Below are positions 33,321 to 53,861 of a stretch of DNA of 64,000 nt, one piece after another (the first letter of the stretch is position 1; every line of letters begins with the position of its first letter). Under the pieces are notes generated by a model, which was not told the DNA's origin, searched no databases, and was given only the letters and a program-made list of their open reading frames with translations. The stretch covers positions 1 through 64,000 of the forward strand of contig CANFXW010000008.1 in NCBI GenBank assembly GCA_947451145.1. The letters are read 5' to 3'. This DNA is from Sphingomonadaceae bacterium. GTDB lineage: Bacteria > Pseudomonadota > Alphaproteobacteria > Sphingomonadales > Sphingomonadaceae. Position numbers and translations under genes: made by a program.

Positions 33321-34790
33321 TCACGCCTCAAGCGGTTCGGTTGCAAATCCCAGTTCAGGAATGGAAACTGATCGGCGTCCGCTGAAATCGTTCCGCACGA
33401 CAATCAGACCGGAACGCTCATAATGATCCAGCAAGCGGCGGATGCGCCCTTGTGAATTCGTACCGTAGACACGGGCCAGCTCTTCGTCGGCTGGACAGGG
33501 CAGGCCCTCCCGAGCAGCACGAGCAATGACGAGAAAAGGCGCCAGAACATCATCCGGGAGCACTGCGGCAACCCTTAGAATCTCGCGCCAGCCATCTCTC
33601 TCCACATCGATGATGCCAGCCACCGCCATGGCGAAGCGTCGGCGAAACTGGTTCATATCGACATGGCCGGCTGTAAGCCGCTGCATCCGGCAGCGAACCG
33701 TGAAATCCTGGAACAGTTTGGATTGAGGTTGAAAGGTGCTTCCTTCCTCTGCGGCCATTTCAAGAAGTATGTTGGCGACGGCGGCTTCAACTTCATCCTG
33801 CGAAGGCGCAAACATCTGCGCCTGCTCGTCGGGTTCCAAAGCTTCAGTCACGTGACCTGCGATCTGTTTGATGAGGTCTTCGGCTGCGGGCTGCCGCGCC
33901 GCAGGAGTTGGTGCGATTGCGGCGGCCTGGTCAAGATGAAGGTCTGCGTGCAGCAATGCATGAAGGTCGTCAGGCGCCGCATTCGGCGGCGGTGCCATCT
34001 TTTGCATCATGACTTTCGCGCCCGTGCGAACAGCGCCAATCCGCACCGCCACAGGGCGGCGGCTGATGGCTGGTCCGAGGCCAAGAAACTCTCCGCGCGC
34101 GAGATCGCGGATCTGCTCGGCCTGACGGCGCTCCATGCCCAGCAAATCTGCCGCACGGGCCATGTCGATATCGAGGAATGTGCGGCCCATCAGGAAGTTC
34201 GAAGCTTCTGCAGCGACATTCTTGGCGAGTTTGGCAAGGCGCTGTGTCGCGACGATTCCGGCAAGCCCGCGTTTGCGGCCACGGCACATGAGGTTGGTCA
34301 TGGCCGTCAAGCTGAGGCGGCGGACTTCGTCACTGACTTCACCAGCAACAGCGGGGGCGAACAACTGCGCTTCGTCCACCACGACCAGCGCAGGAAACCA
34401 TTGTTCATGCGGAGCATCAAACAAGGCTGAAAGGAAAAGCGCGGCACAGCGCATCTGCGCTTCGATCTCCAGTCCATCGAGCGCCAGAACGACTGATGCA
34501 CGGTGTTTTCGGATCCGACCGGCAAGACGTGCAAGCTCTTGCGCTGAATAGGCGGCGCCATCGATCACAATGTGGCCGAACACGCCTGCAAGCGTAACGA
34601 AGTCTCCCTCAGGGTCGATCACGATCTGCTGGATGAGCGAAGCGCTTTCCTCAAGTATGCGCCTGAGCAGATGCGACTTACCTGAGCCACTGTTACCCTG
34701 CACCAGCAATCTGGTTGCGAGCAGTTCTTCGACGTCAATGGTGATCGGGCTGTCGTTCTTGTCGATACCGATTTGAATGGGTGCGCTCAC
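33321..34790 (-). CDS. HerA/DUF87-type ATPase
   Basis: TRLLVQGNSGSGKSHLLRRILE Walker A, QQIVIDPEGDFVTL, ALVVVDEAQLFAP Walker B, GIVATQRLAKL. Confidence 0.82.
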   Translation of the reverse strand: MSAPIQIGIDKNDSPITIDVEELLATRLLVQGNSGSGKSHLLRRILEESASLIQQIVIDPEGDFVTLAGVFGHIVIDGAAYSAQELARLAGRIRKHRASVVLALDGLEIEAQMRCAALFLSALFDAPHEQWFPALVVVDEAQLFAPAVAGEVSDEVRRLSLTAMTNLMCRGRKRGLAGIVATQRLAKLAKNVAAEASNFLMGRTFLDIDMARAADLLGMERRQAEQIRDLARGEFLGLGPAISRRPVAVRIGAVRTGAKVMMQKMAPPPNAAPDDLHALLHADLHLDQAAAIAPTPAARQPAAEDLIKQIAGHVTEALEPDEQAQMFAPSQDEVEAAVANILLEMAAEEGSTFQPQSKLFQDFTVRCRMQRLTAGHVDMNQFRRRFAMAVAGIIDVERDGWREILRVAAVLPDDVLAPFLVIARAAREGLPCPADEELARVYGTNSQGRIRRLLDHYERSGLIVVRNDFSGRRSVSIPELGFATEPLEA

Positions 34791-35270: not shown

Positions 35271-36560
35271 TTATCCCGCTGCAGGCTTTCTCGCGTACCA
35301 GCCAAAACCAGCGATCACGGCGTAACACAGGGCCGGCACCAGCAGCGAAGTTGCAAGGCTGCCCGTTGCGTCAGCGATCAGGCCGGTCGCCAAGGGAATC
35401 ACCGCTCCACCGAAGATTGCGACGTTGATGATACCCGAGCCATCCGCCGCCCGTGCACCCAGCTTTTCGCACGCGAGGCTGAAGATCGTCGGGAACATGA
35501 TCGAATTCATCAGGCCAACGGCAAGCAGGCTGTAACCCGACATCTCGCCGGTAGTGCTGACCGAAACAGCAACCAGAGCTATGGCACCTAAGGCCACTGC
35601 CGCGAGCACCTTGCCCGGGCTGACGACGCGCAACAGAGCCGAGCCGATGAAGCGCCCGACCATGGCCCCGCCCCAGTACAGCGAGATCATCTTGCCGGCA
35701 GATTGTTCCTGCAGCGCCATGACGTGTTCCTGACGCAGGTAGTTGACGATCAGCGACCCGATCGCAACTTCCGCGCCGACATACAGGAAGATGCAAAGCG
35801 CGCCGAAACCGAAGCGTGGGCGCTTGAGCAGGTCAAGCCCGGCCAGTCCTGTGCTTTCCTCGTGCTGTTCCCTGGGCAGAGCATTGCGGAACATCCAGAC
35901 TGCGGCAGCGACGATCGCAAGGACTGCAGCGAGGCCAAGGTAGCCATGGACGATCGCCTGGCTCTCGGCGCTGCGATAGGTATCAAGCTCCGCACCGGTG
36001 AGCGCGCTAGCCGATAGTTTGGCAAGACCACCAAGAATCAGGATCGAACCGAACCAGGGGAAGACAGTCGTCCCCAGCGAGTTGAAGGCTTGAGCAAAAG
36101 TCAGGCGACTGTGTGACGTCTCCGGCTTGCCGAGCAGCGAAATCAGCGGATTGGCGACGACCTGAACGATGACCACGCCGCTGGCGAGGACGAACAGTGC
36201 GAGCAGGAAAACGCCGTAGGTCGCCGTGCGGCTGGCCGGAATGAACAGCAGACAGCCGGCCATCATAGTCAGCAACCCGGCCACGGCACCGCGCATATAG
36301 CCGACTCTCTTGACCAGCCAGGCACCGGGGATGCCGATCACCGCATAGGCAGTGAAGAAGCAGAACTGCACCAGCATCGCCTGCGCATAGTTCAGGGTGA
36401 ACAGCTCTTTCAGCTTCGGGATGATGACATCATTGAGCGAGGTGATGCCGCCAAACACAAAGAACAGTGCCATAACGAACAGGCGAAGCTGCGGCGCATC
36501 GATATTTTGCACCTCCCCGCCTTCCGACAAGTCCTTTTCAGGTCCGATATTTAGCGCCAT
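35271..36560 (-). CDS. Sugar MFS transporter, FucP family
   Basis: LRLFVMALFFVFGGITSLNDVIIPKLKELFTLNYAQAMLVQF, SRLTFAQAFNSLGTTVFPWFG; ATG at 36560. Confidence 0.88.
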   Translation of the reverse strand: MALNIGPEKDLSEGGEVQNIDAPQLRLFVMALFFVFGGITSLNDVIIPKLKELFTLNYAQAMLVQFCFFTAYAVIGIPGAWLVKRVGYMRGAVAGLLTMMAGCLLFIPASRTATYGVFLLALFVLASGVVIVQVVANPLISLLGKPETSHSRLTFAQAFNSLGTTVFPWFGSILILGGLAKLSASALTGAELDTYRSAESQAIVHGYLGLAAVLAIVAAAVWMFRNALPREQHEESTGLAGLDLLKRPRFGFGALCIFLYVGAEVAIGSLIVNYLRQEHVMALQEQSAGKMISLYWGGAMVGRFIGSALLRVVSPGKVLAAVALGAIALVAVSVSTTGEMSGYSLLAVGLMNSIMFPTIFSLACEKLGARAADGSGIINVAIFGGAVIPLATGLIADATGSLATSLLVPALCYAVIAGFGWYARKPAAG

Positions 36561-36627
36561 TTGCCTCTCTCCATGTTCTGTGTTCTCTAGTTGATCGATA
36601 ACGATCGTATTGTCCAAATTCCGGCAT

Positions 36628-37791
36628 TCAATCCTGAGCTCTTCGGGCGACACCTGCCTTCACCCCGTCGAGCGCCAGGGTGACAAAGGGAGCAAAGGTC
36701 CCGCCGAAATGCGAGCGGCCTTGCGGCTTTGATGTGGCAGACGGATCGTCGACGCCCCAATAGTCCACAAAGGCTGCGACATTCAAATCGGGCAAAACCC
36801 ACCAGCTATAGGCCTGGAATGGCTCATTTTCGGGGTTCGCCATGACCAGTCCATGTCCGTTCAACAACTCCCACGGGCCTTCGATGGATTGGGCTGTCGC
36901 GCCGTAAAGACCTGTCGGCGCATCGATGCCGGGGGCGAAGACCTTTGTCTGGGTCGACCAGAACAAATAGAGCTGGCCGGCGTGGCGGACCAGATGAGGG
37001 CGCTCCAGTTCGTTATTGGTGTCAGTTGCATCGACGAGCGGTGCGAGCGGGGCATAACGGCAGCCGTCCGGGTCGAGGCAGGCCAATCCGACCAAACCGT
37101 TGAAGTCACGGGGCGCAGCTGCTGACGAGGCCGTGAACAACAGATATTCGCTGCCATCTGCTTCACGCCAGGGGAACGGATCGCGGAAGGCCTTGATCTC
37201 GCCGATCTTGCCATTGCTCTGGTCGGTGCCCTGATAGGAACCGCCCGGTGTTATCAGCTCACACGGCGGCGACCATCCGGTGAAAACGACACTGTCATCG
37301 GCAGGCAGTGGCGATCTGGTGACAAACAGTCGTTGCCGGAAGGTCTCAACGCTTTCACCGCGCTGACCGGCCGCGGTGAAGTAGAGCGCCGCCTCATCGC
37401 CCTCCATTCGGGCCGCACCCGACCATTCACGACTGCCGGACGAAAAACCGTCTGGCAGAGTGACCCCCAAATGATGGAATCGGCCAGCCCGGCGGTGGAA
37501 GTGATGTATTCGGGCGTGTCCGTGGCGTTGCTCGGGATCGTCAAAAGCCGGGGCAGCGAGCGCGAACCACAGTTCCCCGCCCCGCCATGCGAACGGCATG
37601 CCAGATGCGTCGGAGAGGGGCCATGAGTCCCACACGTCAAGGCCGGGCAGGACGCACTGCACATCATGGGGCTCAAGCACCGGTGCCTGCATGATTGTGG
37701 CGGGATCGAGTCCGGCAAGACACTGCCTTGACCACATCAGAGGCACGCTGACCGGGTCGTTGATCTTCAGGCCCAAAACGGCGGCTGACAT
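36628..37791 (-). CDS. GH68 family enzyme (levansucrase/sucrase-like)
   Basis: LDVWDSWPL, SREWSGAA, AFRDPFPW, ELERPH motifs; AGGAG before the ATG at 37791. Confidence 0.87.
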   Translation of the reverse strand: MSAAVLGLKINDPVSVPLMWSRQCLAGLDPATIMQAPVLEPHDVQCVLPGLDVWDSWPLSDASGMPFAWRGGELWFALAAPAFDDPEQRHGHARIHHFHRRAGRFHHLGVTLPDGFSSGSREWSGAARMEGDEAALYFTAAGQRGESVETFRQRLFVTRSPLPADDSVVFTGWSPPCELITPGGSYQGTDQSNGKIGEIKAFRDPFPWREADGSEYLLFTASSAAAPRDFNGLVGLACLDPDGCRYAPLAPLVDATDTNNELERPHLVRHAGQLYLFWSTQTKVFAPGIDAPTGLYGATAQSIEGPWELLNGHGLVMANPENEPFQAYSWWVLPDLNVAAFVDYWGVDDPSATSKPQGRSHFGGTFAPFVTLALDGVKAGVARRAQD

Positions 37792-37835
37792 GCTTCTACT
37801 CCTGAAGGGGTTTGATCGGTTGGCGAGGCGCCGTG

Positions 37836-39536
37836 TCAAGGCGCCCGGAAACTGATCAGAACGGTCGAAAATGGCTCAAGCTCCGGATGAGCCATATCGA
37901 CAGTGCCTGTGGCTGTGCTGGCCATGATGACCTTGCCAAACTTCGGTGTGCCGCCCCTCCAGCCGGAGATCGCCAACTTCTGGCGCTCGGCGCTCATGTT
38001 GAGCAGGACCAGCACGCCTTCGCCGGATTTGCTGCGGCGGGCATAGGCCACAACTTTGTCGTTGCCCGATTCCAGCGGGACGTAAGCGCCGTTGCGGATC
38101 GCGGGGCTTGTCTTGCGCAGGTTCAGCAGGCGCGCATACCAATGGTACATTGACCCTTTATCGGCCAGTTGGGCGGCAACATTGGTTGCGCTTGCCGTTG
38201 CGGCAACCGGCAGCCAGGGATCGCCGGTAGTGAACCCGGCACCGGCACTGGCCGACCATTGCATCGGTGACCGCACGGGATCACGCCTGTCTGCTACCTT
38301 GCGCTTGGGGCCCAGCGGGAAGGCCTTAAGTTCGTCCGGCTTGAGGTCGGCCATGCCGATTTCCTCGCCGTAATACATCAGGGCGGTGCCGCGCAGTGTC
38401 AGTGTCATTGCCGCGGTCAGGCGGGCGATCAGGCCGTCGTTCTTGCCATCGCCGAACCGCGTCCACTGGCGGGTAGTGTCATGATTGCTGAAGTGGAATA
38501 CGGGCGGCAAACCGTCCAGTTTCAGATGGGCCTCGTCAATCCGGGCTTTGAAAGTTGGCGCATCGAGACCTTTCACGCCGGTGTAGAGGAAGTCCATCGG
38601 CAGGTTGATCTCGTCTCCCTTGGCGCCATAGACCCGGCGCAGGTCTTCAACATTCGAGATGGCATTTTCACCCAGCAGCATGCGGTCGCCGGGGTAGCTG
38701 TCGACGAGCTGGCGCAAGCTGCGCAGCACCTCGTGGTTGGCGGGCAGATTGCTGTTGTAAGGCTTCAGGCCTACCGGCGCGCCCGATTTGACGTCCGGGT
38801 CTTTCGGCCAGCTTGTATCCTCAAAAAGATAGGGCGTGGCATCAAGCCGGAATCCGCTGGCACCGTGATCGAGCCAGAAGCGCATCACATCCAGCATCGC
38901 TTTGCGCAAACCGGGATTGGACCAGTTAACGTCCGGCTGCTCCGGGTAAAAGACATGGTAGTAATACTGGCCGGTGGCCTTATCGAATTCCCAGGTGGAA
39001 CCGCCGAAGATCGACTCCCAATTGCTTGGCGGACCGCCATCCGGGGCAGGATCACGCCAGACATACCAGTCGCGCTTCGGGTTGGTGCGCGATGACCGCG
39101 ATTCCTTGAACCAGGGGTGCTGATCCGAGGAATGGTTCAGCACGAAATCGACCAGAATGCGGATGCCTCGCTTCTTCGCCTCGCGCGAAAGCACATCCCA
39201 GTCCTGCATTGTCCCATATTCTGGCGAGACATTGGTGTAATCCGCGACGTCGTAGCCAAAGTCCTTGTTTGGCGAGGGGAAGAACGGTGTGAGCCAAATG
39301 GCATCAACACCGAGCGCTTTCAGGTAATCGAGCCGCTGGGTAACGCCTTTGAGATCACCCACGCCATCGCCGTTGGTATCCTGAAAGCTGCGCGGGTAAA
39401 TTTCATAGATTACCGCGTGCTTCCACCACGGTTCGGCAGCTTTGGCGGGCTTTGCTTGGGCAGTCCCGCTGCTGAGTGCCAGTGCTGCTGCGGCAAGACC
39501 GGCCAAGGCCGTGCGGGCAAGGCTCAGGGATTTCAT
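37836..39536 (-). CDS. Exported GH13 alpha-glucosidase/alpha-amylase family protein
   Basis: Signal peptide; AVIYEIYPRSFQDTNGDGVGDLKGV, GFRLDATPYLFED, FSNHDTTRQWTRFG. Confidence 0.92.
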   Translation of the reverse strand: MKSLSLARTALAGLAAAALALSSGTAQAKPAKAAEPWWKHAVIYEIYPRSFQDTNGDGVGDLKGVTQRLDYLKALGVDAIWLTPFFPSPNKDFGYDVADYTNVSPEYGTMQDWDVLSREAKKRGIRILVDFVLNHSSDQHPWFKESRSSRTNPKRDWYVWRDPAPDGGPPSNWESIFGGSTWEFDKATGQYYYHVFYPEQPDVNWSNPGLRKAMLDVMRFWLDHGASGFRLDATPYLFEDTSWPKDPDVKSGAPVGLKPYNSNLPANHEVLRSLRQLVDSYPGDRMLLGENAISNVEDLRRVYGAKGDEINLPMDFLYTGVKGLDAPTFKARIDEAHLKLDGLPPVFHFSNHDTTRQWTRFGDGKNDGLIARLTAAMTLTLRGTALMYYGEEIGMADLKPDELKAFPLGPKRKVADRRDPVRSPMQWSASAGAGFTTGDPWLPVAATASATNVAAQLADKGSMYHWYARLLNLRKTSPAIRNGAYVPLESGNDKVVAYARRSKSGEGVLVLLNMSAERQKLAISGWRGGTPKFGKVIMASTATGTVDMAHPELEPFSTVLISFRAP

Positions 39537-41050
39537 TTCGGCATTCTCCCGGTTGTTTTCATGCGCCCGAGTACCTGGGCGTGGTCTTCAAAATTCAGTG
39601 CACAGCCATCGAGGAATCGAGCAATGTCGCGATCCCGATAGAAGTCGACGTCGCTGCGCTGTTCTGTCGCAAGTGCGGGAAAGGCACCGTATCCCGCCAG
39701 CAGACAGTGCCACGAAGCACTGCCGAAGTGGCTGAGCTCGCGCTGTCCCTCAAGCAGGGCGACAAGGTCTGCCCGGCGAAACCAGGTGTCGAGTATCTGC
39801 TCAAGGTTCGACGACAGCTCTGCGTTCTCGCGGTTGACGCGCCAGTAGTCTGTGTCAGAGCGCGTGTTCAGCTTGTAATGGGCGACGATGTAGTCACGCA
39901 CCCGCTCGATGCGGTCGGTGATTGTCTCGTTGAATGTGTCACGGTGCCGCGCGGTGAAGCCGCCACTCTCGAACGCATTCATGAACTGCTCAACGGTATT
40001 GAGCACAAGGTGCAGCGCGGTTGCTTCCAGTGGTTCAATGAAGCCCTGCGCCAGTCCGATTGCAACGCAATTACGCTCCCAGTGCCGCTCAAGCTGGCCA
40101 ACACGGAATTTCAGATGCCGGGCAGAAGCATCAGCTTCGGTCAAGCCAAGATGCGCGCGCAGCTCTGCCTCTGCCTTGTCGGCTGACAAGAAATCCGAGC
40201 TGTAGACATAGCCGTTACCCACCCGGTTAGTCAGCGGTATTGACCAGGCCCAACCGTTCGATAGCGCCGACGCCCGGGTTTCCACCGGCGGAATTGCTGT
40301 TGCCGGAGAGGGCAAGACGACGGCGGCATCGTTGAACAGATTCGACCTGAAACTGCGGAACGGTACGCCCAGCGCACCCTGCATCAAAAGGGCTGTAAAT
40401 CCGCTGCAATCGATGAAGAAATCGGCTTCGACCAGCTCGCCTTGGTCGGTCATCAGCGCGGCAATGTCGCCATTGTCGGCCGGTATGACTTCGACCACCC
40501 GCCGGGCGAGGTGCCGGACACCCGCGGCGGTTGCGCGGTCGCGAAGGAACCCGCCGAGCAAGCCTGAGTCAAAGTGATAGCCATATTCCAGACGGAACGG
40601 AAAGTTCGCCGGAGCAATCGGTGCCTTCCCGTTCGCCGCGAGCACACCGTTGAGAAAGAAATCATCGGGCCGGGTTGGCACGTCGAGGCCCAATCGCCGA
40701 TTGCCGCAGTTTCGGGTGAAGGCCTCTTCGGTATGGACATCGACTTGCGTGAGGAAGGGATGGCCATAGTCGGCAACACCTGATCCCGGGCTCCAGCCGG
40801 AAAAGCGGATGTTGAGCTTGTAGGTGGCGTGACACACCGGCATCCATTCGGCCTCGGCAATGCCAAGCATCTCAAAGAACCGCTTGAGGGTAGGTGTTGA
40901 GCCTTCACCTACGCCGATTGTTCCGATGTCGGGTGATTCAATCAGCACGATCTGCACCGGCAAGTTCTGCCAGCGTTGTGCCAGCAGGTTTGCCGCCATC
41001 CAGCCCGCAGTGCCGCCACCAACAATCGCGAGGCGAAGCTGCGCGCTCAT
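39533..41050 (-). CDS. Tryptophan halogenase family flavoprotein (A)
   Basis: IVGGGTAGWMAANLLA, GVGEGSTPTLKRF, ATYKLNIRFSGW, WAWSIP, FIEPLEATAL. Confidence 0.9.
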   Translation of the reverse strand: MSAQLRLAIVGGGTAGWMAANLLAQRWQNLPVQIVLIESPDIGTIGVGEGSTPTLKRFFEMLGIAEAEWMPVCHATYKLNIRFSGWSPGSGVADYGHPFLTQVDVHTEEAFTRNCGNRRLGLDVPTRPDDFFLNGVLAANGKAPIAPANFPFRLEYGYHFDSGLLGGFLRDRATAAGVRHLARRVVEVIPADNGDIAALMTDQGELVEADFFIDCSGFTALLMQGALGVPFRSFRSNLFNDAAVVLPSPATAIPPVETRASALSNGWAWSIPLTNRVGNGYVYSSDFLSADKAEAELRAHLGLTEADASARHLKFRVGQLERHWERNCVAIGLAQGFIEPLEATALHLVLNTVEQFMNAFESGGFTARHRDTFNETITDRIERVRDYIVAHYKLNTRSDTDYWRVNRENAELSSNLEQILDTWFRRADLVALLEGQRELSHFGSASWHCLLAGYGAFPALATEQRSDVDFYRDRDIARFLDGCALNFEDHAQVLGRMKTTGRMPK

Positions 41051-42543
41051 CCCTGCTGCGCCACCTGGCCCCGAAGCCAGTCATCATGCGCAGGAAGCTG
41101 CGGCAAGGGACGCGCTTTCAACGCGGCGAGGTTGGCGAGTTGCTCGCGCAATTCATCGTCAGACTGGCTGTCTGCGAGCGGATGATGATCGCCGGGCATG
41201 ATATGCTGCCCCATCAAAACCTGAACCCATGATGGTTCCATGAAGATGTCATACTGATCCTGCACCAGGCTGCCGTTGGACCGGAACAAAGCAATCTTCT
41301 TCGCCAGCCGTTCGGGAACCTCCATTTCGCGAAGATCGCGCCAGAACGGCGCGTTGCCGCGGTTGTTGGCGTGGTAGTGCAGGATGATGAAGTCACGGAT
41401 CAGCTCGTACTCGATCTGTGACTGGCGGTTGTATTCGCCGACCAATTGCCCGGTGATGCCTGAGTGCGGGAAGAGATGCAGCAAACGGACGATCGCCGAC
41501 TGGATCAAGTAGATGCTGGTCGATTCAAGCGGTTCGAGGAAGCCGCTCGACAAACCTACCGCAACGACATTGCGATTCCATTGCTGCCGCGCCCGGCCGG
41601 TGCGGAAGGCGATTATCTTCGGATCTGCGAGCGCCGTGGAATCGAGATTAGCCAGCAACAATTCGGCTGCTTGCTCGTCGCTGAAGTGACGGCTGGAGTA
41701 GACCATGCCGTTGCCATTGCGATGCTGCAGCGGGATGCGCCATTGCCAGCCAGCTTCGCGCGCGATGGCCCGGGTGTAGGGCAATGTCGTCTCAAACCGT
41801 TCGGAAGGCACCGCCATTGCCCTGTCGCAGGGCAGCCAATGGCTCCAGTCCTCGTAGCCGGTACCCAGCGCCTGCTGGATCAGGACCCCGCGGGACCCCG
41901 AGCAGTCGATGAACAGATCACCGGCCACCCTGCGCCCGTCGCGCAAAAGCAATTCGGTGATGTCGCCGCTCCCGGCATCGCGGCGCACGTCGGCAACCAT
42001 GCCTTCCGTCCGCGTGACCCCCAGCTTCTCGGAATAGCTTCGCAGATACCGCCCATATAGTGCGGAATCGAAATGGTAGGCATAGGGCATATCCCAGATC
42101 GGGTCGTTGCCCTGAGTTGGCGCGAACTTGCCAGCCTCGGCGCAAAGGTAGTTCAGGTCATAGTCCCAGTAACTGCCGCCGAAGCCAGCCTTGCGGGCCC
42201 GAGCCCAGAAATGATGAAACGAAGCGAAGGCGAGGTTCCGGCCTGCAGAGCCAAAAGTGTGATAATAGGAATCACCTTCGGCACCCCAGTTCTCGAACCG
42301 GATAGCCAGCTTGATCGTTGCTTTGGTTTCGCGAAGGAACTCGCCCTCGTCGATGCCCAATACGGAATTGACCTGCTGGATCGGTGGAATCGTGGCTTCG
42401 CCAACTCCGATGATTCCAATCTCTTCGGATTCGACAAGTTCGATTTCAACCAGCGGACCAAGGACCTTTGCGGTCAATGCTGCAGTCATCCAGCCCGCCG
42501 TGCCGCCGCCCAAGATCACGACTTTGCGGATGGATTTGGTCAT
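41047..42543 (-). CDS. Tryptophan halogenase family flavoprotein (B)
   Basis: [62 protein letters not shown]. Confidence 0.92.
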   Translation of the reverse strand: MTKSIRKVVILGGGTAGWMTAALTAKVLGPLVEIELVESEEIGIIGVGEATIPPIQQVNSVLGIDEGEFLRETKATIKLAIRFENWGAEGDSYYHTFGSAGRNLAFASFHHFWARARKAGFGGSYWDYDLNYLCAEAGKFAPTQGNDPIWDMPYAYHFDSALYGRYLRSYSEKLGVTRTEGMVADVRRDAGSGDITELLLRDGRRVAGDLFIDCSGSRGVLIQQALGTGYEDWSHWLPCDRAMAVPSERFETTLPYTRAIAREAGWQWRIPLQHRNGNGMVYSSRHFSDEQAAELLLANLDSTALADPKIIAFRTGRARQQWNRNVVAVGLSSGFLEPLESTSIYLIQSAIVRLLHLFPHSGITGQLVGEYNRQSQIEYELIRDFIILHYHANNRGNAPFWRDLREMEVPERLAKKIALFRSNGSLVQDQYDIFMEPSWVQVLMGQHIMPGDHHPLADSQSDDELREQLANLAALKARPLPQLPAHDDWLRGQVAQQG

Positions 42544-42572
42544 GGCGGCCTCTTGTTCCGAAGTGATAGTGA

Positions 42573-42602
42573 AGTCCCCGACGGTGTGGGCCGACGGGGA
42601 CT
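42573..42602 (-). terminator. Intergenic hairpin between TBDR and halogenase B
   Basis: AGTCCCCG...CGGGGACT 8-bp stem, extended by CGG/CCG. Confidence 0.5.
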
Positions 42603-42620
42603 ACTCTATGCCTAATTCGC

Positions 42621-45464
42621 TCAGAAGAACGAATAGGTGACGTTCAGCAGGAAGTTTCGGCCGAACGTTTCGACACGGGTGACCAGCCCGCTTGCCGAAT
42701 CGGTGTAGACGTCCTTCTGATTGGTCAGATTCTGCGCCTGGAGCGAGAGTTTCAGACCCTTCAGGACACCGTCGGTATTCTTGAAGTCATACCCGATCTG
42801 GGCATCAACCAGCGTTTCTCCGGCACGGTTGACTGGCGAGATCGTGTTGCTGCCGCCGCGGTCTTCCGAAAGCCAGGCCGACCGGTTGTTCAAAGAGGCA
42901 CGGGCCGAGAAGCCGCCCTTTTCAAAATAGCCGGTCAACTGGAATACCCGCTTCGACAGGCCTGGAACGCTGCTGCCATCATCCAGCTTTCCATCGGTGA
43001 AGGCCGCGCCGCCAATCAGGCCGAACCCGTCCAGTGCCGAAACGAACCGGCCAAACGGAAGGCTCGCTTGCAGTTCGACGCCCTTCACACTTCCCTTCAA
43101 GCCACCGGAATATGTGGTGTTCAGGCCCTTGAATGTGGCTGGCGTAAAGATCGTCAGGCCATTGCTGCTGACCGCCTGATGGTAGCCCGGGATATAGAAC
43201 TGGGTATAGTCTCGCACGGTAACCGCAGCTACGTTCCAGTTCACCAGATCCTTGTAGAAACCGGTGATCGAAATGAACCCGTCCTTGGCGAAATAGTATT
43301 CATAGGACAGGTCGAACTGGTTGGCTTCATACGGACGAAGCTGCGCATTGCCTGACGTGGAAACCCAAGGGCCAAGGCCTGGGTCGGTGTTCGTGACATT
43401 GGCAACGTTATTGCGGAACTTCACCGAGGAACCCGGGTTGAGGAAGTCGATGCGCGGACGGCTGATCACCTTGGCCGCGGCAAAGCGGATGGTGTGGCCG
43501 TTATCGAGGTCGAAGTTCAGGTTCAGGCTCGGCAGGATGCGGCTGTACTTGGCACCGTCGCTGATCGGCTTGGCGATGTCGAGCTGGTTGGCGCCAATAA
43601 CAGAATTGAAGCCTGAGCCCTGCTGGTCGGTGAACACACCCTGCACGCCGATGTTGCCGAACATGCGGACGTTGCCGCCCAGCGTCGTCTCGAAATCAGC
43701 CTTCACGAACGGCTGCCAGACCTTTTCACTGATCGTATAGGTGTCACCCAGACGATCGGGTTCGAGGCTACCCGCGTCATAGCGCTTGTAGAAGGTGCTG
43801 TTGATCAGACCGAGCGCATCATATGCCACGACATTGCCCAGCCCGGCCCAGTTAAGGTCCGCTGCGCCGCGACGGAAGTCGTTAGGGACGGCACCATCGA
43901 GCGGATAGGTCTGCGCGGTCAGGAAGAAGCCCTGATTGACCTTGGACTTCTTGTGGTCCGAATAGCGAACGCCCGCGTTGACGTGCTTGATGAAGGAACC
44001 TTCGAGATCCTTCTGCACTTCAAAACGCAGTGAGTTGAGCTTTTCGTCAAAGATACCGGTGTTGACGAAACCGTCCTGCGCCTGGGCAAAACCGATCGGT
44101 TGGCCGCTGCGGCCGATGACGGCCGTCTGGTTCAGGGCAGCAATCGGTGAAAGGCTGCCACCCCACGATTGCGGACCAGCGAGGCGGACAATGTTATAGT
44201 CGCTGTACCCTTGCGAGTTGTTCGAGAAGAACAGGCCATTGTCCGAGTAAGTATAGGTGCGCAGGTTGTCCGGACCTTGTGTGGTCAGGCCGGCGCGGCC
44301 GAGGCCCGAGTAGCTCTCGCCGCGGGTGTCGCTCTTCTTGCTGTCAGCGTGGCTGAGGTCCAGGGCAAGGTGGAGATCCGACGAAGGGTCGTACTTGAAG
44401 TTTGCGCCAAAGGTTTTGAGCTGGCCGGTCTTGTCAAGCGGATCGCTGCGCAGAACCGAGTTGAAACCGGTCGTGCGCGCCGAAGTAATCGTAGTGGAAT
44501 TCGCGCTGAGCACGGTGCTGCCGTTGGCTGCGATCGGCAGGGCTTCGATGAAGCCGCGCGAGATGCCCTTGTCGGAAAAGTCGATATAGAGCGCATCAAA
44601 GGTGGCGGTGAAGTCGCTGGACGGCTTGAATTCGATGACCCCAGCCACAGTCGTGCGCTTGAGGACCCGCGAGCGCGACGAAATGTCGATGCCGGCAGGC
44701 GCATATTTGCCGGCATTTGTGCCGGAGCTAACTGCACCCTTGTCATAGCCCCAGACGCTGAAGAAGTTGTCCTGGGTCGGCGACGAGGTGGTAGCAGCGG
44801 TCAGTGCGATACCAATGGTATCATCAGCAAATTTGTCGCTGAAGGACAGCGCGGCGCGGTAGCCCTTGTCCTTGAAGTCGGGATTCTTGGACTTCTGGCC
44901 GTTCATTTCGAAGCTGCCGTTCACGACCAGCGAACGCTTGTGCTCAAGCGGATGGATCGTCCGCATGTCGACAGTTCCGCCGATGCCCATCGCGCTCAGA
45001 TCGGAACTCGGGGTCTTGTAGACGACGGCGGTGTCGATGATTTCCGAGGGATAGAGGTCATATTCAACCCCGCGGTTGTCTCCGATGCCGATCAGTTCGC
45101 GACCGTTCATCGTCGTACCGACGTAGTCTTCGCGGAAACCGCGAACCGAGATGCCGCTGACGCGGCCCGCACGGCGCTCACCAGCCAGACCCGCCAGGCG
45201 GCCGAGCGAATCGGCGACGCTTGCTTGGGGGAGCTTACCGATGTCTTCGGACGAAAGCGCTTCAACCACCGAAGTGCTGTTCTGCTTGAGCGTTTGTGCG
45301 CGCTCAAGGCTGGCGCGCAGACCGGTGACGATGATTTCCGGTTCCGCTGCTGCTCCATCGGCTGCCGGCGCCTGGGCCGCGGTCTGAGCCATAGCTGTTC
45401 CGCTGCAAGCCAGGGCAATCACTGCCGTCGTGCAAATAAGATTCATGCGTACATTCATGTGCAA
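42621..45464 (-). CDS. TonB-dependent receptor (carbohydrate type)
   Basis: IIVTGLRASLERAQTLKQNSTSVVEALSSEDIGKLPQASVADSLGRLAGLAGER; C-terminal NVTYSFF. Confidence 0.94.
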   Translation of the reverse strand: MHMNVRMNLICTTAVIALACSGTAMAQTAAQAPAADGAAAEPEIIVTGLRASLERAQTLKQNSTSVVEALSSEDIGKLPQASVADSLGRLAGLAGERRAGRVSGISVRGFREDYVGTTMNGRELIGIGDNRGVEYDLYPSEIIDTAVVYKTPSSDLSAMGIGGTVDMRTIHPLEHKRSLVVNGSFEMNGQKSKNPDFKDKGYRAALSFSDKFADDTIGIALTAATTSSPTQDNFFSVWGYDKGAVSSGTNAGKYAPAGIDISSRSRVLKRTTVAGVIEFKPSSDFTATFDALYIDFSDKGISRGFIEALPIAANGSTVLSANSTTITSARTTGFNSVLRSDPLDKTGQLKTFGANFKYDPSSDLHLALDLSHADSKKSDTRGESYSGLGRAGLTTQGPDNLRTYTYSDNGLFFSNNSQGYSDYNIVRLAGPQSWGGSLSPIAALNQTAVIGRSGQPIGFAQAQDGFVNTGIFDEKLNSLRFEVQKDLEGSFIKHVNAGVRYSDHKKSKVNQGFFLTAQTYPLDGAVPNDFRRGAADLNWAGLGNVVAYDALGLINSTFYKRYDAGSLEPDRLGDTYTISEKVWQPFVKADFETTLGGNVRMFGNIGVQGVFTDQQGSGFNSVIGANQLDIAKPISDGAKYSRILPSLNLNFDLDNGHTIRFAAAKVISRPRIDFLNPGSSVKFRNNVANVTNTDPGLGPWVSTSGNAQLRPYEANQFDLSYEYYFAKDGFISITGFYKDLVNWNVAAVTVRDYTQFYIPGYHQAVSSNGLTIFTPATFKGLNTTYSGGLKGSVKGVELQASLPFGRFVSALDGFGLIGGAAFTDGKLDDGSSVPGLSKRVFQLTGYFEKGGFSARASLNNRSAWLSEDRGGSNTISPVNRAGETLVDAQIGYDFKNTDGVLKGLKLSLQAQNLTNQKDVYTDSASGLVTRVETFGRNFLLNVTYSFF

Positions 45465-45546: not shown

Positions 45547-45611
45547 CAATCGATTTAAATGCGGCATCGATTTTTTTGCATATGCAAATTTCATCGATTT
45601 GCTGTCGATTT
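45547..45611. promoter_or_regulatory. Divergent regulatory region with ATCGATTT repeats and TTTGCATATGCAAA palindrome
   Basis: ATCGATTT at 45549, 45566 and 45593, GTCGATTT at 45604; 14-bp perfect palindrome 45575-45588. Confidence 0.6.
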
Positions 45612-45637
45612 GTGGTTCAGGTATCCATAACCGGAAG

Positions 45638-46978
45638 ATGGAAGCCAGGCCGCAAATTCCGATCACTACTCATCCGGCGCGAGATCGATCAGCGGCTTTC
45701 TTTGCCTTGGCAATCACTTTCCTGGTCTTCGCAGTAATGGGCATTTCCGGGGCGATGGCGACGACTCTGGTTCCGGCTGTGCGCGCTATTTTTGGATTGT
45801 CCTTATCCTCTGCAATTGCCGTGCAATGGATAGCGCTAGTGGTCATCGGTTTTGCCTCACTCCCTCTGGCGAGACTGTTGCAGTGGCGGGGAGCAGCGCA
45901 GGCAACGATATTCGGCTTGACCTTGGTCACGCTCGGCTGCCTTGCGGTTGCCATTGCGGTATTGCCCAACCAGCAACTTGGGCCGCAGTACGCCACTCTG
46001 CTCTGCTCGCTGGCCGTCGTGGCGCTTGGCAATACAACGCTTCAGGTCGCCGCGAATCTGCTGGCGGTCGAACTGGGTGATCGATCCAAGGGGCCTGCGA
46101 GGCTGACGCTGGCGCAAGGCTTCAATTCGTTGGGTGTCCTCATAGGTGTCCATATAGGCGCATCGTACATGTTGGGGGCGGGCTGCGGGGCCAGCAATGC
46201 ATGTCACCGCGAAATCGCGATAGGCACCGCGCAAGTCTATTTGTTTAGCGCGACTGTCAGCTTTGTCGTTTTGATGTTTGCCATCTTCGGGCGAAGGCTG
46301 TTGGCGATCCCTATCGCCGTCGCGCCTGCAGATCCAAAAGCCAATGTCCGACGCAGCCTGTTTCGCTCTGGCTGGGCACTTGCCGGAGCTGGCGCCATTG
46401 CCCTCTACGTTGGCGCCGAAGGCGCAATTGGCAGCATTCTGATCAGTTTCCTCCAGCAGCCCGCTGTGCTGGATCTGCCAGTGTCCGCAGCCGGCGCGCT
46501 CGTTGCAAATGTCTATTGGGGTGGTGCACTTCTGGGGAGATTTGCGGGCGGCTGGCTGCTCTCGGGTCGATTGGCTCCCCGGATTCTGGCAGGAACTGCC
46601 GCTTTCGCCGCCATTGCCTGCTTTGTTGCGCTGAGCTGTTCGGGCCAGCTCGCCGGATGGGCGGCGCTCAGCATCGGGTTGCTCAATGCCATCATGTTTC
46701 CGGTGATTTTTTCGATCACGCTTGAACGCGCTGCAGCCCCGCCTGCAGCTGTTTCCGGCTTGTTGAGCATGTCTATTGGTGGTGGTGCGCTGATCTCTGT
46801 TGCGGTTGGGTGGGTTGGCGATCGCTTTGGCATCAGCGCAGCATTTGCGGTGCCGATGTGCGCTTACCTTTATGTCTTGGTCTTCGCAGTTCTGGCGGTC
46901 ATATTGCCCGGTTCCAGCCCGCCACCGCAGGAGTCGCGAACGACCAGTTCGGTCGGCAAGCGCTCTGATTTGACCTGA
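45638..46978 (+). CDS. Sugar MFS transporter, FucP-like
   Basis: ARLTLAQGFNSLGVLIGVHIG; 12-TM pattern; divergent from the TBDR. Confidence 0.82.
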   Translation: MEARPQIPITTHPARDRSAAFFALAITFLVFAVMGISGAMATTLVPAVRAIFGLSLSSAIAVQWIALVVIGFASLPLARLLQWRGAAQATIFGLTLVTLGCLAVAIAVLPNQQLGPQYATLLCSLAVVALGNTTLQVAANLLAVELGDRSKGPARLTLAQGFNSLGVLIGVHIGASYMLGAGCGASNACHREIAIGTAQVYLFSATVSFVVLMFAIFGRRLLAIPIAVAPADPKANVRRSLFRSGWALAGAGAIALYVGAEGAIGSILISFLQQPAVLDLPVSAAGALVANVYWGGALLGRFAGGWLLSGRLAPRILAGTAAFAAIACFVALSCSGQLAGWAALSIGLLNAIMFPVIFSITLERAAAPPAAVSGLLSMSIGGGALISVAVGWVGDRFGISAAFAVPMCAYLYVLVFAVLAVILPGSSPPPQESRTTSSVGKRSDLT

Positions 46979-47991
46979 TATCCGGCCATCGCACGCAGCA
47001 GTTTGGATACCAGAAGCTGCCCCGCAATAATCGCATCCTGGCGAATGGTCGTCAAAGGCGGCCGGACAAGCTTCGCAATTTCGTCATCGTCGTATCCTAT
47101 GACGGCCACGTCACCGGGAACCGTCAATCCATGCGCCAATAGGCAATCGATAGCGCCGACGGCGACAAGATCAGAGGTGGCGACAATAGCATCAAACTTC
47201 CGCCCCGTGGCGATCAAGTGGGCCACAGCATCGGCTCCGGCCTGTTTCCCGGTTGCGGCAGATTGAATCGCAGTCAAATCGGAAAGGAGACCGGCTTCAG
47301 CTAGCGCGGCTTTGTAGCCTGCCATCCGGTCGGCTAGTTGCGATAGGCGCGTTTGTGCCGATGTGATCGGGGCAGCTTGGCCAATAAAGGCTATCCTTGT
47401 GCGGCCATTCGCGATCAGGTGCCTGGTTGCGCAAAGGCCGCCTTCATGATTGTCGCTGCCAACAGAACAGTATTGCTGGTCCTTGCTCTCCACTCCCCAC
47501 ACCACAAAGGGGCGTGTCCCATGGGCAAGAGCATTAAGGCCATCGTGAAACTGTGACTGGCCCAGAAAGATGATCCCATCGTAACGGTGGCTCGCCATGA
47601 ATGCCGCCAGGGTCTTGTCATCGTAAGGCGCCTGCGCCGACACGGAAAAATCGAGCCCGTTATCCCGCATTGCCGCACCAATCCCGCCAAGAAGATTGAG
47701 TTCAAATGAATTTGCCAGTCGGGAGCCGGCTGGAAGAGCGACCGGCATGACAACGCAGATAGTTCCGGCTCGTCTAGGCCGGGTTGCGCGCGAACGCCTC
47801 TGTTTCGAGGGCGCACCTTCGCGCAAGGGATACCCTAGAGCCTCGGCGGTGGCCCTTACATGTGACTTGGTTTCGGGCTTGATCGCGGGATGGTCGTCCA
47901 GAACGCGCGAGACAGTCGCGATCGAAACGCCAGCCGCGGCAGCAACGTCCGCGAGCCTGGGTTTACCTTTGCCTTTTGAGGCGTTTGCCAT
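46870..47991 (-). CDS. LacI family transcriptional regulator
   Basis: PRLADVAAAAGVSIATVSRVLDDHPAIKPETKSHVRATAEALGYPL HTH, VIGYDDDEIAKLVRPPLTTIRQD. Confidence 0.95.
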   Translation of the reverse strand: MANASKGKGKPRLADVAAAAGVSIATVSRVLDDHPAIKPETKSHVRATAEALGYPLREGAPSKQRRSRATRPRRAGTICVVMPVALPAGSRLANSFELNLLGGIGAAMRDNGLDFSVSAQAPYDDKTLAAFMASHRYDGIIFLGQSQFHDGLNALAHGTRPFVVWGVESKDQQYCSVGSDNHEGGLCATRHLIANGRTRIAFIGQAAPITSAQTRLSQLADRMAGYKAALAEAGLLSDLTAIQSAATGKQAGADAVAHLIATGRKFDAIVATSDLVAVGAIDCLLAHGLTVPGDVAVIGYDDDEIAKLVRPPLTTIRQDAIIAGQLLVSKLLRAMAGYQVKSERLPTELVVRDSCGGGLEPGNMTARTAKTKT

Positions 47992-48276: not shown

Positions 48277-49686
48277 TCACCCGCCTTTCGGCCTCATGAT
48301 ATCGAGCGCGATCATCAAGCGCTCGCCCCGGGCAAAGGGTATCACCGAATGCCACATGTTCGATGGGAAAGTTGCGATCATGCCCGGCTTTGGCGCGATG
48401 GTCTGGTAGGCGGGCAGGTCAAGACCCAGCTCCTGCGGCGGAATGCCGAAGGCGATGTGACCGGCGGGGGCAGGGCCGCGCTCAGCCTCGTCGGGTATGG
48501 CAAGATAGAGCGATGAACTCAGCCAGCCGATCGGGTGGGTGTGCGGCACATTGTGCCCTTGCGGTGACAACCGGACTGACCAACTGCCGCCGATCAGCAG
48601 CGGCTCGCGCGCAATGCCCAGGAACGGGTGGCCTGATTCCGGCTCGGGCAGGGAAGCGATGTGTTCGCGGATCGCTTCGAGCCAGCGCGCCCGGGTGCGT
48701 TGCAGGATCGGTTCGTGGCGCAGCAGGATCGAGCGGTCGGTCTGCGTGCCGCCGCGGACTGTCTGTTCGATATAGGGGCGCTCCATCGTATGGAGTGAGC
48801 GCAACACATCGGCAAGCTCGTCAAGTTCGCTTGGCGAAAGCCCGATATCGCTGTGGTTGATGAAGCGTTCGGAATTGTCGAGCCACTGGTGCCGATCGTC
48901 CCCCAGCACCCGCCAGACGAGCGAGAGATAGGGCCAGAACAGACCGGCCGACGGTGTAGCGACCAGCGGCTCGAGCAAGCACAGCGCCTGATCAAAGCGC
49001 TGGCGGCGGATGGCATAGCGGACACGGCAGAGATTGATCGTATCGCCCTGGATATGCGCGCAAGCGGGCATCAGCACCTCGGTTGCGGCGGTGTCTCCAG
49101 ACTCCGTAGCTATGAACAGGCGGGCTGCGAGCACCGGGGCGGTTGTGCCGATATGGCGCTCGGCCTCGTCGATAATCCGGTGGCTGGCTTGCCAGTCTCG
49201 CGTCTGGGCGACAATGGCGAACCACGCGAGCCACAGCGCCGCATTTTGCGGCTCGGAGCGGCAGGCATCGGCATAGCTATCGGCAAAGCGATCACTCTCA
49301 CCGCGCGTCCAGCGCAGGGTTGCCAGTGCCTTGTGGCCATCAAGCCAACCGGGGTGCTGGCGCAGGCCATCGATCAGCAGTGCCTCTGCGCCAGCTGCAT
49401 CGCCTTCGCTGGCCAAGGCGAAGGCGCGGTTGCGGACGATGTCGAGATTGCCCGGCATCACGGTTTGCGCTGCGGCGAAGTGATCGGCGGCGGGCAGGCC
49501 CAGCTCGTACCGCGTCTGCGCCCGGCCAAACAGCAGCACCGGATCATCCGGGAACCGCGCCAGCCCCTCTGACAGCAACTTCTCGGCCTCGATCAGGCGC
49601 TGCTCGGCGCTGAGCGAGCGGGCGGCAAGGCGAATATCCGTCAGCGATGCGGCTGCTTGCTCCATCGCCTCTGGATCCCGCGTCAC
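48277..49686 (-). CDS. TPR domain protein with C-terminal putative 2OG-Fe(II) oxygenase
   Basis: TPR-like N-terminus; [22 protein letters not shown] and [23 protein letters not shown] overlap with halogenase C. Confidence 0.82.
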
Positions 49687-51191
49687 TTGGCGATCAGCTG
49701 ATCGATGAACTGCTGGTGCGTTGGCAATTGGCCCGCCTCTCGCTCCATCGTCTGGCGCATACGGGTCAACATGTCGCGCGGATCAAGCCCGCGATGATCC
49801 ATCAGCGGCTCGTGATGCTCGGGATAATTAAGCTGGCCGATGTGCACCGCCAGCCAGCTTGCCGGAGCAAAAAGGTCCATCTCGCGGGCAACCAAGCGGC
49901 CATATTTGCGGAAGTGATCGAGCTTGAGCTGCAAGGTATCGGGAACCTCCATCGCCGCGCAATAGCGCCACAGCTCGGCGTCGTCGCGCTGGGTCAGCTT
50001 GTAATGCAGGATAATGAAATCACGGATCCGCTCGGTTTCGGTGATGGCGATGCGATTGAATTCGGCAATCGTTGCAGGATCGAAATCGCGATCGGGAAAC
50101 AGCGCGATGATCTTCGAAATATTAGCCTGAATCAGGTGGATAGAGGTTGATTCAAGCGGTTCCAGAAAGCCGCTCGACAGGCCAACCGCGATAACATTCT
50201 TGACCCAATGCTGCTTGCGCCGCCCGGTAACAAAGCGCAGCGGGCGGGGATCACCCAGCGCCTTGCCGTCCAGTCTGGAGGCCAGCAATTCCGCCGCCTT
50301 GTCATCGTCGAGGAACTGGCTGCAATAGACGTAGCCATTGCCGGTGCGGTGCTGCAGGGGGATGCGCCATTGCCAGCCGGCCTCGCGTGCGGTGGAGCGG
50401 GTATAGGGGGTAGGCTCGCCAGCATTCTCGCAGGGCATGGCGACGGCGCGGTCACAGGGCAGCCAATGCGTCCAGTCCTCATAGCCGGTCTTGAGCGCGC
50501 CCTCGATCAGCAAGCCGCGAAAACCGGAGCAATCGATAAACAGATCGGCACCGAAGGTGCGCCCGTCTTCCATCGTCACCGATTCAACGAAGCCGCTCTC
50601 GCCATTTAGGCTTACGTCGCCAATCTTGCCCTCAACACGGGTTACACCCTTGTCCTCGGCATAACCGCGCAGATAGCGGGCATAGAGCCCGGCATCGAAG
50701 TGATAGGCGTACTCGTAGGTCGACAGTACCGAGCGCGCATCGGGAATTGGCCGGGCAAAGCGGCCCTGGCGGGCGATGTTCCAGGCCATCGACCAGTCAT
50801 CAATCGGGGCCGTCTCTCCCTGCTCACGCGCGCGCAGCCAATATTGGTGCAGCGGCACATAGTCAAAATTGCGGCCATGGGTTCCGAAGGGGTGGAAGTA
50901 GCGGTGGTCTCTCTTTCCCCAATCGACAAATTCAATGCCGAGCTTGAAAGAGGCATTCGTTTCGCGAACGAAATCGGCCTCGTTGATGCCAAGCGATTCA
51001 TTGAAGGTGCGGATCGGCGGGATCGTTGCTTCGCCGACGCCAACCGTGCCGATCTCTTCGGATTCGATCACAGAGATCGCGCAGTCCTGGCGCAGCGCTT
51101 GGGCCAGCGCAGCTGCCGTCATCCAGCCGGCAGAGCCGCCGCCAACGATCAGAATGGAACGAATGCGTCGATCATCCATTGTGCTTGCCAT
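49683..51191 (-). CDS. Tryptophan halogenase family flavoprotein (C)
   Basis: [62 protein letters not shown]. Confidence 0.92.
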
Positions 51192-51234
51192 GCCTTTTCC
51201 AGCATCCCGGTTTGGGCCTTAGCCCGAAAAAGAA

Positions 51235-51260
51235 CGGGCCGGAAGTTTCCTTCCGGCCCG
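51235..51260 (-). terminator. Hairpin between TBDR and halogenase C with U-rich tail on the minus strand
   Basis: CGGGCCGGAAG-TTTC-CTTCCGGCCCG (11 bp); minus-strand tail TTCTTTTTC. Confidence 0.75.
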
Positions 51261-51304
51261 CAAGTCCCCAACCCGAAGGGAGACGGAATTGGGAGGAGTT
51301 TTGC

Positions 51305-53791: not shown

Positions 53792-53861
53792 TTTTCCCTC
53801 CCACACGATTCGGAACTTTCCCGCCTAAGACACGGGTTGGCAGTCTCACTCACATTTTAGA

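Follow-up and report, generated by a model that had tools for sequence, protein, structure and literature searches.

A TonB-dependent receptor (TBDR), a BrvH-type flavin-dependent halogenase and a TPR protein ending in a putative 2OG-Fe(II) oxygenase domain behave, on comparison of their sequences, as one evolutionary unit, which is limited to one receptor clade and often lies in raffinose/sucrose-type loci. Many proteobacterial "tryptophan halogenases" are orphans with respect to natural substrate, and the module links them to the puzzle of TBDR-associated 2OG dioxygenases. It brings together a single receptor and its two enzymes, with natural controls and a residue that may be the modified one. 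Our literature search found no prior description of a TBDR-halogenase-2OG set, or of a SapC-halogenase association, within a coverage that took in a minority of the subscription papers.

Organization of the locus

The three genes are intact open reading frames on the minus strand (53806-48277) of the window (the whole stretch of 64,000 nucleotides that was analysed), in the order receptor, halogenase, TPR protein that a previous reading of this DNA from sequence alone had given (hereafter, the sequence-only reading). The receptor gene, TBDRr (51305..53806), encodes 833 aa with a signal peptide, plug and barrel being recognized by Pfam. Its start is probably a TTG at ~53791, which lies behind GGGAGG and five codons downstream of the annotated GTG. 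The AlphaFold2 model (pLDDT 84.7) matches FoxA, Fiu, FhuA and PiuA in Foldseek. The halogenase, HalC (49683..51191; 502 aa), overlaps by the 4 bp GTGA, as previously described, with the gene of the TPR-PF13759 protein (48277..49686; 469 aa), the putative 2OG-Fe(II) oxygenase.

In the gap between the receptor and halogenase genes is a terminator-like hairpin (51234..51261, minus strand) with a 12-bp GC-rich stem and a T tail. Hairpins that share this form, though not the sequence, are found after 22 of 75 clade A receptors and 2 of 26 clade B receptors (clades are defined below), and none of 375 shuffles. The hairpin is probably a read-through attenuator that sets the enzymes below the receptor. 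Read-through past it would leave the enzymes far scarcer than the receptor, which would fit catalysts that act on an abundant outer-membrane protein.

On one side of the module are a LacI-family regulator (46870..47991, minus strand) and an MFS transporter (45599..46978, plus strand). On the other, the plus strand carries genes for a Na+/H+ exchanger family member (54071..55327), an MFS sugar transporter (55411..56748), a GH36 alpha-galactosidase (melibiase; 56717..58789), galactose-1-phosphate uridylyltransferase (GalT; 58786..59820), galactokinase (GalK; 59817..60971), a GH68-like protein of the levansucrase/invertase family (61072..62229) and a ROK-family kinase, probably a fructokinase (62195..63100), followed on the minus strand by a LacI-type periplasmic-binding-like regulator domain (63084..63932). 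From these gene families, we infer a raffinose/galactosyl-sucrose-type catabolic region. TBDR, regulator, inner-membrane transporter and glycoside hydrolases are all present, as expected of a TBDR carbohydrate-utilization (CUT) locus; the published CUT loci likewise group a TBDR with a regulator, an MFS transporter and glycoside hydrolases, and halogenases, SapC and 2OG proteins go unmentioned in the paper describing them (PMC1790865). Among the proteins scanned between 35 and 64 kb of the window there is no NRPS, PKS or amino-acid biosynthetic partner, in agreement with the sequence-only reading, and a halogenated natural-product cluster was rejected on this ground.

Two neighbors may be mentioned in passing. 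The exchanger gene has the same sugar genes for neighbors in a number of related loci (L020, L021, L037, L072 and L110), at ~71-72% identity. A HerA-like ATPase (DUF87) is encoded at 33321-34790, between unrelated genes.

Linkage and co-occurrence

A profile built from the TPR protein was run against GTDB species genomes and gave 80 loci from Novosphingobium, other sphingomonads, Caulobacterales, Alteromonas, Catenovulum, Rheinheimera, Pseudomaricurvus and others. A halogenase and a TBDR both lie within 6 kb in 68 of the 80, in alpha- and gammaproteobacteria; the neighborhood association suspected in the sequence-only reading is far beyond chance. With regard to the recurrence in Caulobacter and Xanthomonas given in that reading, the coverage was of Caulobacterales MAGs and several gammaproteobacterial genera. 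Gene order is variable (TBDR-Hal-2OG in 35 loci, TBDR-2OG-Hal in 20, 2OG-TBDR-Hal in 3, plus inverted forms). The remaining 12 loci comprise seven truncated at a contig end (L027, L035, L049, L057, L061, L073, L075), three with a halogenase but no adjacent TBDR (L031, L033, L063), and L056 and L058, which have neither halogenase nor this receptor and adjoin other TBDRs and a TPR-PF05118 aspartyl/asparaginyl hydroxylase. Paralogous TPR-PF13759 proteins (~30% identity) provide an internal control, as neither a halogenase nor this receptor is found near them.

The same company is kept at the level of genomes. In 41 relatives, a close TPR-2OG protein, a clade A receptor and a matching halogenase share the same 10 genomes (G000, G001, G003, G008, G009, G010, G016, G017, G019 and G023, the TPR-2OG of G016 being a contig-end fragment) and occur in none of the other 31 (Fisher p 9e-10, uncorrected for phylogeny). 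Moreover, in three genomes the enzyme pair no longer adjoins the receptor (N. capsulatum, L031; Novosphingobium SG919, L063; N. pokkalii, L033/L221 and G111), yet a 46%-identical clade A receptor is retained elsewhere in each, which argues against mere operon hitch-hiking.

Other neighbors are less constant: GH36 is found in 35 of the 80 loci, GH68-like proteins in 42 and LacI regulators in 53. The LacI regulators make shared induction plausible, and hence ordinary co-inheritance, in which the common operon would reflect common sugar regulation with no direct link to receptor function. The reshuffled gene orders, the unlinked co-occurrence and the clade specificity described next all speak against this explanation, and we regard it as quite improbable.

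Receptor and halogenase clades

The receptor tree contains 103 rows, of which 76 fall in clade A and 27 in clade B; a few rows represent the same receptor twice, so that ~71 clade A and ~26 clade B receptors are distinct. Clade A receptors have the enzymes nearby, the exceptions being G111 (with the pair elsewhere in the genome) and a few cases cut by short flanks, one of which is settled by L190. For clade B, no enzyme of the pair is present in the available flanks of the 27 rows, 19 of which were checked with wider flanks. Many clade B receptors nevertheless adjoin GH68-like, ROK, MFS and LacI genes, in similar sucrose loci. The halogenases show a corresponding pattern: those with a TPR-2OG neighbor form one exclusive clade (78 of 78 rows, with few duplicates; support 0.735), the five other halogenases of the tree are the second halogenases of double loci, and the labels change four times over the tree as compared with ~50 times in shuffles. 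The proposal that receptor and enzymes function as a unit is thus strongly supported by linkage, by co-occurrence even when unlinked, and by clade specificity, and no biosynthetic partner genes accompany them in the sugar loci that were scanned.

The halogenase

HalC matches PF04820 (Trp_halogenase) over the full model length with 653 bits, and the motifs previously noted are all present (GGGSAGW at 17, FKLGIEF with K83, GWQWRIP at 272 and EPLES at 344-348). K83 is aligned with both BrvH and PrnA, and E347 with E349 of BrvH, whose catalytic residues are K83 and E349 (PMC5945002). Each of the two is kept in 148 of 152 halogenase rows, and W273 in all 152. The closest structures are BrvH (6frl), 9luq and Xcc4156 (6y1w). 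BrvH and Xcc4156 belong by sequence to the same subgroup as HalC, with full-length alignments of 484-524 bits and the catalytic Lys and Glu retained. In the region that corresponds to the tryptophan lid of RebH (430-446), HalC aligns without gaps to the short open loop described for BrvH (PMC5945002), while its alignment to PrnA ends at 428-429. With the FAD motif GxGxxG, WxWxIP, the catalytic Lys and Glu and the short loop, HalC has the sequence features of the BrvH/indole-accepting subgroup, and its substrate site is predicted to be open, without the long lid that covers tryptophan. HalC has no signal peptide.

BrvH brominates indole weakly and tryptophan not at all, and larger substrates would fit its site (PMC5945002); more generally, indole derivatives, as opposed to free tryptophan, serve as substrates for both BrvH and the Xanthomonas halogenases (PMC5945002, PMC7336383). 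TonB receptors are unmentioned in the BrvH paper, in the Xcc4156 paper and in a halogenase genomics survey. Here the connection is close, as the genome of the window has four full-length halogenases (three of them in the window) and 38 Plug matches, and all four halogenases lie <3 kb from a TBDR, as compared with a chance expectation of ~11% of genes.

These activities bear on a small-molecule model, in which the pair would oxidize or halogenate an aromatic compound taken up along with the sugar (e.g., a plant phenolic or indolic glycoside, or a sugar ester), whether for detoxification, for catabolism or to make a halogenated ligand or signal. The genes do sit in sugar-catabolism loci, and BrvH halogenates free indole; however, its activity is low, and its authors are sceptical of indole as the natural substrate (PMC5945002). 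The recognized neighbors include no aromatic catabolic or exporter genes, and sister receptors manage in similar sucrose loci without either enzyme. A TPR superhelix is also, to our knowledge, unusual among small-molecule 2OG enzymes, which counts against the model.

The nearest precedent is CciT-CciO. In Caulobacter, the receptor CciT is co-conserved with a cytoplasmic 2OG/Fe(II) dioxygenase, CciO, which is strictly and specifically needed for CciT function, and the receptor is still made without it (PMC12004947, PMC12004943). The CciO authors propose three models, all involving small molecules, and leave the mechanism open (PMC12004947). CciT-CciO (like PiuA-PiuC and Fiu-YbiX) resembles the present module in the co-conservation of a TBDR with a 2OG dioxygenase. 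It differs in that the receptors are iron receptors under Fur, the 2OG enzyme is of another type, and no sugar locus, TPR domain or halogenase is reported, whereas the present locus is a LacI/GH36/GalK sugar region. We take the CciO-type enzyme to be of the PKHD type. On balance, we consider the small-molecule model rather unlikely, though it is the main rival of modification of the receptor.

The TPR-oxygenase

The TPR protein matches PF13759 (2OG-FeII_Oxy_5) at residues 368-462 with 60.9 bits (cut-off 27), and also TPR_14 and TPR_19. H382, H384, H446 and R456 are conserved in all readable sequences among 87, and are the probable metal and 2OG residues of the putative oxygenase; their H-x-H motif is unusual, H-x-D being the common form. 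The predicted structure (pLDDT 90.5) has human AspH as all of its top ten PDB fold matches (Foldseek, E 3e-9 to 6e-8), although whole-chain TM-scores are low (~0.3). The next matches are TPR proteins and P3H1. Both AspH and P3H1 are protein hydroxylases. AspH likewise consists of a TPR superhelix followed by an oxygenase domain, and the 10-residue spacing of its H725 and R735 is that of H446 and R456. The two proteins differ in the H-x-H motif of the TPR-oxygenase, and in that the AspH family profile (PF05118) has no match in the TPR-oxygenase, whose domain is PF13759. AspH works in the ER, on EGF-type domains, whereas the TPR-oxygenase has no signal peptide and is predicted to be cytoplasmic. 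As neither enzyme of the pair has a signal peptide, they would encounter any polypeptide substrate before it is exported. A polypeptide substrate, as envisaged in the sequence-only reading, is favored by the AspH-like fold of the TPR-oxygenase and by the ungapped alignment of HalC to the open-site BrvH.

A candidate site in the receptor

The best candidate for a modified residue, as a lead only, is Trp488 (codon 52343..52345, minus strand; motif NNWGxCC). It is located in the loop 455-493, which is predicted to be extracellular by the strand order of the receptor model. Trp488 is invariant in the 76 clade A rows, and is kept in the two unlinked receptors that were read (L225, L226). At this position clade B has F in 13 rows, W in six and no recognizable motif in eight (n = 27, ungapped motif search), and two genomes that have a TPR-2OG protein and no linked halogenase have F (L227, L228). 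Modification of the receptor itself is plausible, though the six unpartnered receptors with W weaken the case. They also eliminate Trp488 as a signature unique to partnered receptors; MAFFT gap placement had masked them. An aromatic residue at this position may equally stack on sugar. Trp142 of the plug (codon 53381..53383, minus strand; FGNNDYW) is W in 93% of partnered and F in 26 of 27 unpartnered receptors.

Several further tryptophan comparisons were discarded. A W-G-[GDNS]-like motif is found in 32 of 39 halogenase-partnered TBDRs and in 6 of 12 others, and is not decisive. Homology of W488 to the invariant WGG Trp of TonB-Xanth-Caul receptors was dropped, as the profile alignment spans only the N-terminal 104 columns; these parallel receptors themselves give no clean Trp contrast. 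In the sister comparison of L121/L122 with L195/L196, no Trp is lost with the halogenase: the L195/L196 receptors, with no halogenase near, keep every Trp of their halogenase-partnered sisters.

We propose that the receptor serves sugar uptake and that the pair is dedicated to it and modifies its precursor before export, with Trp488 as the candidate site, an explanation to which we give a little less than an even chance. The TPR superhelix would hold a polypeptide in its unfolded state, the likeliest being the receptor precursor ahead of Sec export. The AspH-like domain would hydroxylate a side chain, and the open-site halogenase would brominate or chlorinate an aromatic residue, for which Trp488 in the loop 455-493 is the best candidate. 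The modified receptor might then bind or gate differently, or differ in its resistance to attack (phage, bacteriocin). We know of no case in which a flavin halogenase modifies an outer-membrane protein before its export. If the proposal is true, post-translational halogenation becomes a new way of setting receptor properties.

Related loci with other oxygenases

TBDR loci carry further 2OG families that include protein hydroxylases, namely Cupin_8 (with SapC) and TPR-PF05118. In a set of 68 halogenase ORFs in 48 regions, 52 lie within 3 kb of a TBDR and nine more within ~7 kb; Cupin_8 is present in 14 of these halogenase-TBDR loci, and SapC (PF07277) is confirmed in five. The Cupin_8/SapC sets indicate that 2OG-type proteins of differing families accompany halogenases and TBDRs. 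More tentatively than for the single receptor, we suggest that receptor-dedicated sets of halogenase and oxygenase may tune TBDRs across the Proteobacteria by post-translational halogenation and hydroxylation. The oxygenase family would be exchanged between sets: PF13759-TPR, Cupin_8 with SapC, and PF05118-TPR beside PF13759-TPR, the last in two TBDR loci that have no halogenase. On this wider reading, BrvH-like "tryptophan halogenases", a large class of orphans, would gain a protein substrate.

SapC, which may be an envelope protein family, is found with halogenase and Cupin_8 in the parallel loci. Together with the protein-hydroxylase fold of the TPR-oxygenase, it raises the alternative that the pair modifies another polypeptide that works with the receptor: the TonB/ExbB partner, a protein of the periplasm or cell surface, or one of the glycoside hydrolases encoded in the locus. 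In these comparisons no other protein keeps company with the pair as closely as the receptor does (35 of 80 loci for GH36 and 42 of 80 for GH68-like proteins), and the clade A receptor is retained even when unlinked. Such a target appears improbable to us, and the receptor precursor is the preferred substrate.

Individual loci are varied in composition. TBDR, halogenase and Cupin_8 occur together in all eight of L109, L112, L115-L118, L123 and L145, often with GH3 and LacI nearby, and the confirmed SapC genes are those of L109, L115, L117, L123 and L145. Contig 9 of the genome of the window (L095) has a TBDR, GH3, a halogenase, GH30, MFS and one or two Cupin_8 (JmjC-like 2OG) proteins. In L056 (8583-9722) and L058 (8598-9800), a TPR protein with a PF05118 hydroxylase domain directly precedes the TPR-PF13759 protein, beside TonB receptors and without a halogenase. 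The window itself contains a second module (35271..45464, minus strand), consisting of a TBDR (42621-45464), the halogenases HalB (41047-42543) and HalA (39533-41050), GH13, GH68 and MFS, in which no 2OG protein was recognized. HalB and HalA overlap each other by 4 bp, with a further 4-bp overlap with GH13, and the pair recalls the second halogenase gene that adjoins brvH. Finally, L102, L104, L107 and L135 each have three or four genes of the halogenase family, arranged in tandem or face to face, and PF04820 scores are low (~160-220 bits) for some of them that are divergent.
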